NCBI GenBank assembly: GCA_029218425.1
Contig: JAQXRH010000072.1
Span: forward strand, 43,294 to 107,293
Direction of reading: 5' to 3'
DNA: 64,000 nt
From: Bacteroidales bacterium
Lineage (GTDB): Bacteria; Bacteroidota; Bacteroidia; Bacteroidales; Muribaculaceae
This document shows positions 1,357 to 5,492 of this stretch, one piece after another. Each line of letters begins with the position of its first letter. Positions within the stretch are counted from its first letter, which is position 1. The notes below the pieces were generated by a model that made no database searches, had not been told where the DNA came from, and was given only the letters and a program-made list of their open reading frames with translations. Made by a program: the position numbers and the translations under genes.

Positions 1357-1387
1357 TTGCTAATTAAAAACAAATAGCTAACTTTGC
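1357..1387 (+). promoter_or_regulatory. Bacteroidetes-type promoter for the pheA leader/operon (-33 TTG, 19-nt spacer, -7 TAACTTTG)
   Basis: TTG 1357-1359 and TAACTTTG 1379-1386 match the TTTG/TAnnTTTG consensus at 19 nt spacing. Confidence 0.6.
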
Positions 1388-1416: not shown

Positions 1417-1473
1417 ATGACTCGATTTAGCTCATATTATTCATTTTTTTATTTTTATTTTGACAAAAGATAA
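1417..1473 (+). CDS. Attenuator leader peptide MTRFSSYYSFFYFYFDKR (5 Phe + 4 Tyr of 18)
   Basis: Short ORF just after the promoter and before a mutually exclusive antiterminator/terminator pair and pheA. Confidence 0.8.
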   Translation: MTRFSSYYSFFYFYFDKR

Positions 1474-1478
1474 AAAGA

Positions 1479-1541
1479 GGGATTTTATGGCATAAGGCTT
1501 AATTGAACGTTTAGATGATTAACAAAAAAATATAAAATCCC
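1479..1541 (+). promoter_or_regulatory. Antiterminator: GGGATTTTAT (1479-1488) pairs perfectly with ATAAAATCCC (1532-1541)
   Basis: 10-bp exact complement. The 3' arm overlaps the 5' arm of the terminator at 1534-1561. Confidence 0.75.
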
Positions 1542-1566
1542 GTTGTAACAAGCGGGATTTTTTTTT
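1534..1566 (+). terminator. Attenuator terminator upstream of pheA
   Basis: AAAATCCCG (1534-1542) / CGGGATTTT (1553-1561) followed by a T run, 13 nt before the pheA ATG. Confidence 0.8.
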
Positions 1567-1578
1567 GAGCAAAAAAAT

Positions 1579-2424
1579 ATGAAACGTAGAGTGACAATAC
1601 AAGGTGTGGCTGGGTGCTACCACGATGCAGCGGCAAGGCTTTATTTCGCTGGCGAAGATATAGAGACGGTGCCATGCGACACGTTTAACGACATGTTTGA
1701 CGTGCTGTCGTCAGATGCTTCGATGTATGGCATATTAGCAATCGAAAATACCATAGCCGGGTCGTTGCTCCAAAACCATGAATTGTTGCGACAGAGCAAT
1801 TTGCGAGTCATAGGGGAGCAAAAGATGCGCATCACCCACATGCTTGCCGCCCTCCCTGGACAGTCAATCGACGAGCTTACTGAGGTCAATTCCCATCCCA
1901 TAGCGTTGATGCAGTGTGAAAACTATCTTCGCCGTCACCCCAATCTCAAGATGATTGAGAAATTTGATACGGCGGGGTCGGCCCGTGAGATAGCCGAGAA
2001 CAATCTTGTAGGGCATGCGGCAGTGTGCGGCGAATATGCCGCACAGCTTTACGGCTTGAATATCCTCGAACGTAGTATTGAAACCAACAAGCGCAATTTC
2101 ACACGTTTTCTCATCCTTGCCGACCCGTTGCAAGCCGACGAGGCAACCCGTAAAAACCCCATTGACAAGGCCTCATTGGTGTTCACTTTGCCGCACACCA
2201 ATGGCGCACTATCGAAAGTGTTGACCATATTCTCGTTCTACGATATGAACCTGTCGAAGATACAATCGTTGCCCATATTGGGCCGCGAGTGGGAATACCG
2301 TTTCTATGTCGATTTGACGTTTGACAACTATACTCGTTATCGCCAGGCTATTGATGCCGCCCGTCCGTTGACCAACGATTTCAAGATACTTGGTGAATAT
2401 GCCCATTGTGAAACCCAGCTGTGA
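1579..2424 (+). CDS. pheA: Prephenate dehydratase
   Basis: VTIQGVAGCYHDAAARLYF... with C-terminal ACT-like region (SLVFTLPHTNGALSKVLTIFSFYDMNLSKIQSLP); operon context. Confidence 0.92.
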   Translation: MKRRVTIQGVAGCYHDAAARLYFAGEDIETVPCDTFNDMFDVLSSDASMYGILAIENTIAGSLLQNHELLRQSNLRVIGEQKMRITHMLAALPGQSIDELTEVNSHPIALMQCENYLRRHPNLKMIEKFDTAGSAREIAENNLVGHAAVCGEYAAQLYGLNILERSIETNKRNFTRFLILADPLQADEATRKNPIDKASLVFTLPHTNGALSKVLTIFSFYDMNLSKIQSLPILGREWEYRFYVDLTFDNYTRYRQAIDAARPLTNDFKILGEYAHCETQL

Positions 2425-3608
2425 TTAAATACAAAAATATGATACCATCCGACATACGCCCGGCATCGCGTGTAGATGCCATAGAAGAATACTATTTTTC
2501 GCGAAAGCTAAAAGAGGTGGCAGCGCTTAATGCTGCCGGCGCCGACATCATATCGCTCGGTATCGGCGGCCCCGACCGCATGCCGCATGCCGATGTGATA
2601 TCCACATTGGCAACTGAAGCGGCCACACCCGGCAATCACTCCTACCAGCCATATACCGGTATCCCGGCATTACGCAAAGCCTATGCCGATTGGTATCACC
2701 GTTACTATGGCGTAGACCTAAATCCCGATAATGAGATATTGCCGCTTATAGGTTCGAAAGAGGGTGTGCTGCACATCTCGCTGGCATTTCTCAATCCCGG
2801 CGATGGCGTCCTGGTGCCCAACCCCGGTTATCCCACCTATTCATCGGTGAGCAAACTCGTGGGCGCCCGTATCATCAGCTACGACCTTGATGAAAACCAC
2901 GGGTGGCAACCCGACTTCGACGCATTGGAAAATACCGACCTTAGCGGGGTCAAGCTGATGTGGGTCAACTATCCCAATATGCCCACCGGAGCCCGTGCGT
3001 CGGCAGCCCTTTATGAACGACTTGTCGACTTCGGACGCCGCCATTCCATCGTCATTGTCAACGACAACCCTTATAGCTTCATTCTCAACGATAATCCACA
3101 GTCGATATTGTCGGTGCCCGGGGCAAAGGATACTGTCATAGAGATGAATTCGTTAAGCAAGAGCCACAATATGGCAGGTTGGCGATTGGGCATGGCAGCT
3201 TCCAACCCCACCTTTATCAACTGGGTGCTCAAGGTGAAATCCAATATTGACTCCGGGCAGTTCAAGCCAGTTATGCTTGCTGCTGCCAAGGCGTTGAGCT
3301 TGGGCGATGACTGGTATGCCGAAGTCAACAAGGTATACGCCGAGCGGCGCAAGGTGGCCGAACAGATTATGCAGGCCCTTGGTTGCTCATTCGATCCGTC
3401 GCAGCAAGGCCTCTTTGTGTGGGGCAAGATACCGGCCGAAGCATTGTCGGCTGAAGCCGTTGCCGACAAGGTGCTCTCCGATGCGCGCGTCTTTATTACT
3501 CCCGGATTTATATTCGGGTCGAATGGTGAGCGATACATACGAGTGTCGCTATGCACTCCTGTCGAGCGCATGAAAGAGGCCCTTGAACGTATTAAAAACA
3601 TGAAATAA
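2421..3608 (+). CDS. PLP-dependent aminotransferase class I/II (probable aromatic aminotransferase); start may be ATG at 2439
   Basis: Fold type I motifs: NPGYPTYSS, NYPNMPTGA, and SLSKSHNMAGWRLG containing the PLP lysine; overlaps the pheA stop. Confidence 0.88.
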   Translation: MIKYKNMIPSDIRPASRVDAIEEYYFSRKLKEVAALNAAGADIISLGIGGPDRMPHADVISTLATEAATPGNHSYQPYTGIPALRKAYADWYHRYYGVDLNPDNEILPLIGSKEGVLHISLAFLNPGDGVLVPNPGYPTYSSVSKLVGARIISYDLDENHGWQPDFDALENTDLSGVKLMWVNYPNMPTGARASAALYERLVDFGRRHSIVIVNDNPYSFILNDNPQSILSVPGAKDTVIEMNSLSKSHNMAGWRLGMAASNPTFINWVLKVKSNIDSGQFKPVMLAAAKALSLGDDWYAEVNKVYAERRKVAEQIMQALGCSFDPSQQGLFVWGKIPAEALSAEAVADKVLSDARVFITPGFIFGSNGERYIRVSLCTPVERMKEALERIKNMK

Positions 3609-3630: not shown

Positions 3631-4704
3631 ATGAAAGATTTACAACCTATAAGATTGGACGGCATTGATGCCAATGCCCCGATGATTATAGCCGGACCAT
3701 GCTCAGCCGAGACACGCGAGCAAGTGTTGGACACAGCACGCCAATTGGCAGCCAATGGTATTAAGATATTTAGAGCCGGGATATGGAAGCCGCGCACCAA
3801 GCCGGGCGGTTTTGAAGGCGTAGGCGTGGAAGGCCTCGAATGGCTTAAAGAAGTGAAGGCTGAGACCGGCATGTACACCGCTACCGAAGTGGCCACTAAG
3901 CAGCATGTCGAAGCCGCCCTTGCCGCAGGTGTCGACATACTATGGATAGGTGCGCGCACCTCAGCCAACCCGTTCGCAATGCAGGAGATAGCCGATGCTC
4001 TCGCCGAATCGGGCGCCGATGTGCCGGTATTGGTGAAAAATCCGGTAAATCCCGACCTTGAGCTGTGGATTGGAGCTATGGAGCGTATCTACAATGCCGG
4101 CATACGTCGCATCGGTGCGATACATCGTGGCTTCAGCGCCTACGGCAAGCACCTCTACCGCAACCTCCCTCAATGGCACATACCCATCGAGTTGCGTCGT
4201 CGCCTCCCCGAAATACCTATCTTCAGCGACCCGTCGCATATCGGTGGTAAGCGCGAACTTGTAGCGCCCTTGGCCCAGCAAGCTCTTGACATGGGCTTCG
4301 ACGGACTTATCATTGAAAGCCATTGCGACCCCGATTGCGCTTGGAGCGATAAAGCTCAGCAAGTCAACCCAGATGTGCTCAACTTCATCCTCAACACCCT
4401 CGTAATACGCGATGCCAAGACTTCAACCGAAAGCCTCACACTGCTTCGCCAGCAAATCGACCAGATAGACAACGAGATACTTGAAAGCCTGAACAAACGT
4501 ATGCGAGTGTCGCGCGAAATCGGCCAATACAAGAAGGAACACCGCATGCCCGTGCTACAGGCCGGCCGTTACGACTCTATCATGAAATCGCGTGTCAAGC
4601 TCGCCACTGAGATGGGCATGTCGGCCGAGTTTATGACTTCGGTGCTGTCGGCCATCCATGAAGAATCGGTTCGTCAGCAGATTGAAATCCTCAACCGCCG
4701 TTAA
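3631..4704 (+). CDS. Bifunctional 3-deoxy-7-phosphoheptulonate synthase / chorismate mutase
   Basis: N-terminal DAHP synthase (IIAGPCSAETREQ...FRAGIWKPRTKPGGFEG) and C-terminal AroQ-like mutase (LRQQIDQIDNEILESLNKRMRVSREIGQYK). Confidence 0.93.
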   Translation: MKDLQPIRLDGIDANAPMIIAGPCSAETREQVLDTARQLAANGIKIFRAGIWKPRTKPGGFEGVGVEGLEWLKEVKAETGMYTATEVATKQHVEAALAAGVDILWIGARTSANPFAMQEIADALAESGADVPVLVKNPVNPDLELWIGAMERIYNAGIRRIGAIHRGFSAYGKHLYRNLPQWHIPIELRRRLPEIPIFSDPSHIGGKRELVAPLAQQALDMGFDGLIIESHCDPDCAWSDKAQQVNPDVLNFILNTLVIRDAKTSTESLTLLRQQIDQIDNEILESLNKRMRVSREIGQYKKEHRMPVLQAGRYDSIMKSRVKLATEMGMSAEFMTSVLSAIHEESVRQQIEILNRR

Positions 4705-4718
4705 TCATTAGCCCAGAT

Positions 4719-5492
4719 ATGAAAATACTGATATTGGGAGCCGGGAAGATGGGCTCATTTTTCTCCGATGTGCTCTCGCGCGACCACCAGGTGGCTATCT
4801 ATGATGTCGACCCCGAACGTTTGCGCTTCACATTCAATGTGCTACGTTTCACCACCCTCGACGAAATCAAAGAATTTGCCCCCGAACTCGTCATCAATGC
4901 AGCTACGGTGAAATATACGTTGTCGGCATTTGAATCGGTGATGCCGGCCCTGCCTTCCACCGCTATTCTCAGCGATATAGCTTCGGTAAAAACCGGACTG
5001 CCTGAGTTTTATGCTTCTTGCGGGCATCCGTTTGTGTCGACCCACCCCATGTTTGGCCCCACTTTCGCCTCCTTGAGCAACCTTGCCAACGAGAATGCCA
5101 TCATCATTACCGAAAGTGACCACCTCGGGAAAACATTCTTCCGCGACCTCTACAATTCGCTTCATCTTCACATTGAAGAATACAGCTTTGAAGAGCACGA
5201 CCTCACCATCGCCTACTCATTGTCGATACCTTTCGCGTCGACTTTGGTGTTTGCCGGAGTGATGGAACACCAGGACGCTCCCGGCACTACGTTCAAGCGC
5301 CACATGGCAATAGCTCGCGGACTGATGTCGGAGGACGATTATCTTCTCAGTGAAATACTCTTCAACCCTAATACTCCGGCTCAGCTCGCAAAGATTCAGG
5401 ACAAGCTTGCCCAGCTGCAGCAGATTGTGGCCAATCGCGACTCTAAAGCTATGGCGCAATTCCTCCACGACACTCGCGAGAGGTTGAAGTAG
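4719..5492 (+). CDS. tyrA: Prephenate dehydrogenase
   Basis: ILILGAGKMGSFFSDVLSRDHQVAIYDVD Rossmann motif, STHPMFGPT; last gene of the aromatic operon. Confidence 0.88.
   Translation: MKILILGAGKMGSFFSDVLSRDHQVAIYDVDPERLRFTFNVLRFTTLDEIKEFAPELVINAATVKYTLSAFESVMPALPSTAILSDIASVKTGLPEFYASCGHPFVSTHPMFGPTFASLSNLANENAIIITESDHLGKTFFRDLYNSLHLHIEEYSFEEHDLTIAYSLSIPFASTLVFAGVMEHQDAPGTTFKRHMAIARGLMSEDDYLLSEILFNPNTPAQLAKIQDKLAQLQQIVANRDSKAMAQFLHDTRERLK

Follow-up and report, generated by a model that had tools for sequence, protein, structure and literature searches.

A mixed phenylalanine/tyrosine leader-peptide attenuator predicted upstream of pheA in a Muribaculaceae genome, with counterparts across the Bacteroidales

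The window analysed here, a stretch of 64,000 nucleotides from contig JAQXRH010000072.1 of the Bacteroidales bacterium assembly GCA_029218425.1 (Muribaculaceae), carries an operon with the gene order pheA, aminotransferase, DAHP synthase/chorismate mutase and tyrA, and raises the question of how the supply of its products, which include phenylalanine (Phe) and tyrosine (Tyr), is sensed. An initial annotation had proposed that the region in front of pheA acts as a ribosome-mediated attenuator, and this proposal is supported by five features observed in the sequences: conservation of the parts among relatives, codon content specific to the pathway, co-variation of the RNA arms, the spacing between codons and arms, and a promoter box. 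We consider it very likely on this comparative evidence that a ribosome-mediated transcription attenuator with a mixed Phe/Tyr sensor controls the whole operon.

The putative sensor is a short open reading frame (ORF) with an ATG start at 1417-1419 and a TAA stop at 1471-1473, and nine of its 18 residues are Phe or Tyr, just as first annotated. The sensor codons extend from Phe4 (1426) through Phe15 (1459-1461), and the densest stretch has eight Phe/Tyr in ten residues. TTT and TAT codons are common here because the leader region is only 24% G+C. When the AT-rich intergenic region was shuffled 2000 times with dinucleotides preserved, an ATG ORF with at least six Phe/Tyr in ten residues arose in 0.3% of the shuffles, and the observed eight in ten in none (0/2000). 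The leader is also the sole match of that kind among 426 tiles of 300 nucleotides covering both strands of the whole window.

Only five bases separate the leader stop from the 5' arm of the putative antiterminator (arm 2, GGGATTTTAT), which starts at the sixth and pairs perfectly over 10 bp with arm 3 (ATAAAATCCC; 1479-1488 with 1532-1541); the initial annotation was right on both counts, and the pairing outscores 200 of 200 shuffles of the spacer. Most of arm 3 is shared with the predicted terminator, AAAATCCCGTT-GTAACA-AGCGGGATTTT at 1534-1561, followed by a nine-T run at 1558-1566 that lies 12 bases before the pheA ATG (1579). The shared-arm terminator and T run are thus present in front of pheA as had been claimed, but the helix is of 11 bp (1534-1544 with 1551-1561, around a loop at 1545-1550) with A-U extensions, and not of 9 bp. 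The terminator hairpin scores 4.1 standard deviations (SD) better than shuffled sequences (z -4.05) and the antiterminator 2.5 SD better. A short transcript is predicted to end at the T run, near 1566.

Upstream of the leader lies a sequence matching TAnnTTTG, the -7 element of Bacteroidota promoters. From this box, at 1379-1386, transcription is predicted to start near 1393, so that the leader would begin about 20-25 nucleotides into the transcript. Of 124 loci, 108 have the same box 8-80 nucleotides 5' of the leader ATG, where shuffles predict 6.6, and 92 of them also carry a TTG at N17-22.

From these parts we infer translation of the leader, stalling, termination and a response to charged tRNA. 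When Phe-tRNA and Tyr-tRNA are plentiful, a ribosome would reach the stop of the 18-codon leader and mask most of arm 2 (1479-1488); arm 3 would then pair with arm 4, the 3' arm of the terminator, and transcription would stop near 1566. When either charged tRNA is scarce, the ribosome would stall on one of the nine Phe/Tyr codons, and even at the last of them (1459) its leading edge would fall short of arm 2, leaving arm 2 to pair with arm 3. The terminator could then not form and the operon would be transcribed.

The geometry fits this scheme, in which a ribosome at the stop covers the antiterminator arm and a stalled one leaves it free. Across loci, the spacing between arm 2 and the start of the last aromatic codon, counted from that codon's first base, has a median of 15 nucleotides and lies between 9 and 20 in nearly all, which is roughly how far a ribosome extends beyond its A site. 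The position of the stop codon varies, from about 25 nucleotides inside arm 2 to 9 nucleotides before it, and in 91% of loci a ribosome halted there would cover 4 or more nucleotides of arm 2. The ORF of many relatives continues through arm 2, giving rise to a recurring peptide end, NGILCA (GGG ATT TTA TGT GCA). The leader in the window instead has its stop 5' of arm 2; the spacing from the last Phe codon to arm 2 is 20 nucleotides, and seven of the ten arm 2 nucleotides would be masked by a ribosome at the stop.

It is very unlikely that translational coupling or reinitiation, or Rho, is the main route by which the leader works, in place of the intrinsic terminator. A role in reinitiation has been suggested for leader ORFs near genes (PMC4833913), but here the leader ends 105 nucleotides upstream of pheA, with a strong terminator and a conserved competing helix between them, and the same work ties such long distances (at least 40 nucleotides) to attenuation.

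The initial annotation had named a lack of conservation in relatives as one finding that would tell against attenuation. Both leader ORF and hairpins proved to be conserved across Bacteroidales. Among named Muribaculaceae loci whose upstream sequence is long enough, 61 of 76 have an aromatic leader ORF 5' of pheA. The same holds for 65 of 72 loci of other Bacteroidales families, two of them with GTG starts, and for 15 of 26 loci in the class but outside the order. Most Muribaculaceae leaders begin M(T/K/N)RF.. and continue with a Phe/Tyr block. At the core positions Phe and Tyr replace one another freely (one position has Phe in 26 leaders and Tyr in 24) and synonymous codons vary, which fits codons read for tRNA supply and not a need for a particular peptide.

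The RNA arms are likewise maintained. Among 104 loci with both a leader and a downstream terminator, 93 have a pairing of arm 2 with arm 3 that is better than in dinucleotide shuffles at p<=0.05, and 75 reach p<=0.01. Triplets of arm 2, arm 3 and arm 4 positions shift jointly, for example from G:C:G to C:G:C or A:T:A, keeping both alternative pairings, although this listing is illustrative because the arms were chosen by pairing. We rely on an alignment-free swap test that uses no chosen columns, since arm 2 is partly misaligned in a structure-blind alignment; arms were exchanged between loci, with row and column means removed. A locus's own arm pairs better than a swapped one by 4.9 kcal/mol, with a permutation SD of 0.34 (about 14 SD). 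The antiterminator, as predicted from sequence, is mutually exclusive with the terminator, and the co-variation supports this.

The leader codons match the pathway of the genes downstream. The same leader scan was run within Bacteroidales upstream of pheA, trpE, hisG and ilvD, and Phe/Tyr leaders were found before 63 of 73 pheA genes and only 3 of 90 of the other three genes together. Tryptophan (Trp) leaders precede 19 of 30 trpE genes (L184-L213) and histidine (His) leaders 18 of 30 hisG genes (L214-L243; for example MNNTLHHHHHHCNSSR), with none of either before the remaining three genes. Isoleucine/leucine/valine (Ile/Leu/Val) leaders precede 21 of 30 ilvD genes (L244-L273; for example MKNLLNIVLVVVVVISEMK) and 3 of 73 pheA genes. 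These leaders before trp, his and ilv genes suggest that attenuation is a general mode of control across Bacteroidales. In the source genome itself, a sequence near G000:C10:103538 (L320:739-849) probably encodes a Trp leader, MQNICINIQNWRWWRTS..., listed as MQNICINIQNWRWWRTSLRHHCHSVCLYENLELDNK; it lies 5' of trpE and also of the gene that precedes trpE. No His leader was seen 5' of hisG in this genome and no Ile/Leu/Val leader 5' of ilvD. Threonine (Thr) leaders 5' of thrA form no general pattern in the order, most thrA genes showing none; the lone clear case, L306, has a Thr/Ile leader, MKHQLHTIITITTTRPQTS.

This specificity bears on the idea that the ORF arose by chance in AT-rich DNA, the terminator being an ordinary one or the end of a small RNA 5' of pheA. 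The low G+C content and a weak, sub-threshold likeness to the Bacteroides small RNA GibS (30 bits against a cut-off of 115) lend it something, but an aromatic ORF that is kept throughout the order while its Phe and Tyr exchange, the near absence of such ORFs before the other biosynthetic genes and the co-varying arms make it extremely improbable.

A closer link between codons and operon content comes from four loci (L084, L088, L128 and L153) in which neither tyrA nor any other aromatic gene accompanies pheA. Their leaders are almost Phe-only, as in MTRFFTHFFFFFTQQ and MITINNSFFFFFFRSDPEKGL, with Tyr shares of 0, 0.14, 0.18 and 0, compared to a median of 0.40 in the other 59 (Mann-Whitney p=6e-4, with n=4 tyrA-less loci and lineages that are not fully independent). 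This is the direction that attenuation predicts, and it agrees with the earlier suggestion that mixed Phe and Tyr codons suit an operon holding both pheA and tyrA. Some leaders also have a Trp codon within the Phe/Tyr block (L082, L097, L105, L108, L111, L112 and others). These are commoner where aroB, aroC or aroD is in the operon, at 9 of 21 loci against 5 of 42 without (p=0.009), a tie that is suggestive only because the lineages are not independent.

These observations also argue against action of the leader peptide itself, once made or as a nascent arrest peptide, in place of codons sensing tRNA supply. The N-terminal M(T/K)RF motif conserved in Muribaculaceae would suit such a role, but the exchange of Phe and Tyr in the core, the widely different C-termini, stops that shift by more than 25 nucleotides, and the Phe-only leaders accompanying pheA alone leave it scarcely credible. 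It is equally hard to credit that another leader RNA (a T-box, a riboswitch or a protein-bound antiterminator) senses Phe or Tyr with the ORF incidental, for while terminator/antiterminator logic is common to all these classes, such an element would need neither Phe/Tyr codons nor a fixed 15-nucleotide distance from codon to arm 2, and no Rfam family exceeds its threshold in the window, or in the leader even when cut-offs are relaxed. There is no T-box match at gathering or relaxed thresholds, and none of the Proteobacterial leader families (Phe, Trp, Thr, His, Leu) reaches its gathering threshold in the window; the leader scores 23.8 bits against Trp_leader, which needs 41, and 19.4 against Thr_leader, which needs 55.

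Several points weigh against control by ribosome-mediated attenuation. First, the mechanism requires transcription-translation coupling, which is assumed for Bacteroidota. Second, classic attenuators use a protector helix when translation fails; one is predicted in the window, between the U-rich sensor codons and an A/G-rich segment 5' of arm 2, but such a helix is not generally conserved among the loci (median z about -1). Third, co-variation is only modest in a structure-blind MAFFT alignment, where 73.1% of cells are paired and shuffled partners give 69.9 +/- 0.8, as some rows have arm 2 out of register; with RNAalifold the alignment recovers the terminator and no consensus antiterminator. 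Fourth, the leader is absent at 15 Muribaculaceae and 7 other loci.

At six of the 15 leaderless Muribaculaceae loci (L040, L058, L063, L066, L069 and L072) pheA directly follows an ORF ending GKEYVVQDGDIMHFRFNV, which we take to be the end of ychF. The switch is missing where pheA has moved under another gene's control region, the attenuator being lost with relocation.

Two aromatic leader-terminator modules stand in series at 12 of the 73 order-level loci, spread over nine GTDB families. An antiterminator is found at p<=0.05 in 23 of these 24 modules, the exception being the second module of L099. Arms pair better within a module (mean -17.1 kcal/mol) than across modules (-10.0). No TAnnTTTG box lies between the modules at any of the 12 loci, and one transcript therefore probably passes both. 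To our knowledge, leader-peptide attenuators in tandem have not been described, although the literature was not searched for this arrangement. We think it fairly probable that attenuation is general for amino-acid biosynthesis in Bacteroidales and that the aromatic operon is a stackable multi-input sensor, in which mixed Phe/Tyr (sometimes Trp) codons would act as an OR gate and some lineages would place two attenuators with orthogonal arms in series.

The features of the locus are collected in the table. The source genome is a draft of 98 contigs and 87% completeness, and the PheA of the window is 92% identical to its nearest named relatives, which are Muribaculaceae. A family-level search gave no prephenate dehydratase match for 49 of the 149 Muribaculaceae genomes, among them 40 of the 110 good-quality ones, possibly reflecting Phe auxotrophy or a limit of the search. 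On the minus strand at 1180-1290, in the gap that separates the leader from the divergent gene upstream, there is a structured intergenic stretch (z -3.3) with a closing helix, GGCCCACCT/AGGTGGGCT, and a U run after it; neither the pheA loci nor 20 relatives that were searched have a counterpart, and it was dropped.

Table. Features of the pheA locus in the window, and loci with tandem attenuators
Feature	Position	Strand	Evidence
Bacteroidota-type promoter: TTG 1357-1359 and -7 box TAACTTTG 1379-1386	1357..1386	+	TAnnTTTG enrichment before leaders
Leader peptide ORF MTRFSSYYSFFYFYFDKR, stop included	1417..1473	+	homologous aromatic leaders in relatives
Antiterminator 5' arm (arm 2) GGGATTTTAT	1479..1488	+	perfect pairing with 1532-1541; kept and co-varying in relatives
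Shared arm (arm 3): antiterminator 3' arm ATAAAATCCC 1532-1541, terminator 5' arm AAAATCCCGTT 1534-1544	1532..1544	+	
Terminator 3' arm (arm 4) AGCGGGATTTT 1551-1561 and T run 1558-1566	1551..1566	+	z -4.05
pheA, prephenate dehydratase	1579..2424	+	PF00800, E 1.8e-52
Aminotransferase class I/II	2421..3608	+	PF00155, E 1.6e-58
DAHP synthase fused to chorismate mutase	3631..4704	+	PF00793 and PF01817
tyrA, prephenate dehydrogenase	4719..5492	+	PF02153, E 9.9e-10
Tandem attenuators upstream of pheA: L086, L096, L099, L106, L111, L114, L125, L133, L134, L139, L145, L150			

Textbook attenuation comes mostly from Proteobacteria, with some Actinobacteria, and PMC4833913 cites a comparative survey of attenuation by Lopatovskaya et al. 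from 2010 (Mol Biol 44:128). Closer precedents lie within the Bacteroidota. The available text of a 2021 transcriptome of Flavobacterium psychrophilum reports strong clues to leader-peptide attenuation before amino-acid operons, including a pheA 5' element that is conserved in Flavobacteriaceae and has no Rfam matches (PMC9723704), and a map of Bacteroides thetaiotaomicron notes short ORFs in long 5' untranslated regions that resemble such leaders (PMC7366714). The F. psychrophilum pheA and hisG elements share phylum and genes with the Bacteroidales attenuators; that text covers one flavobacterium and its family, without order-wide co-variation, a test of codons against operon content or a tandem arrangement. 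The B. thetaiotaomicron example is a hypothetical gene, BT_4401, and pheA is absent from the main text. To judge from these two precedents, this kind of switch is already known. We found no dedicated study of Bacteroidales attenuators in the literature searched, and their order-wide extent appears undescribed. What is added here is that extent, the specificity, the co-variation, the tie between codons and operon, and the tandem arrangement. There is now a strong comparative case for attenuation in a gut-dominating phylum where it was merely hinted at. Because attenuation needs a ribosome close behind RNA polymerase, order-wide attenuators make transcription-translation coupling in Bacteroidota directly testable. 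Leader codons that match operon content, with Tyr mainly where tyrA is present, also amount to a readable code that predicts regulation from sequence in uncultured gut bacteria.

The pheL-pheA system of Enterobacteriaceae and the Proteobacterial trp, his, ilv, leu and thr attenuators are built alike, with a short leader of end-product codons, mutually exclusive antiterminator and terminator, and the regulated genes directly 3'. However, pheL reads Phe, whereas the leader in the window mixes Phe and Tyr codons, matching an operon with both pheA and tyrA. The Bacteroidales element also differs from the Proteobacterial attenuators in lacking both a match to an Rfam leader family and a conserved protector helix, and Bacteroidota, unlike Enterobacteriaceae, have no Shine-Dalgarno requirement. 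The multivalent attenuators of ilvGMEDA and ilvB likewise sense several amino acids of the same operon with one leader, but those are other amino acids, and at the pheA loci the Tyr share of the leader follows the presence of tyrA.
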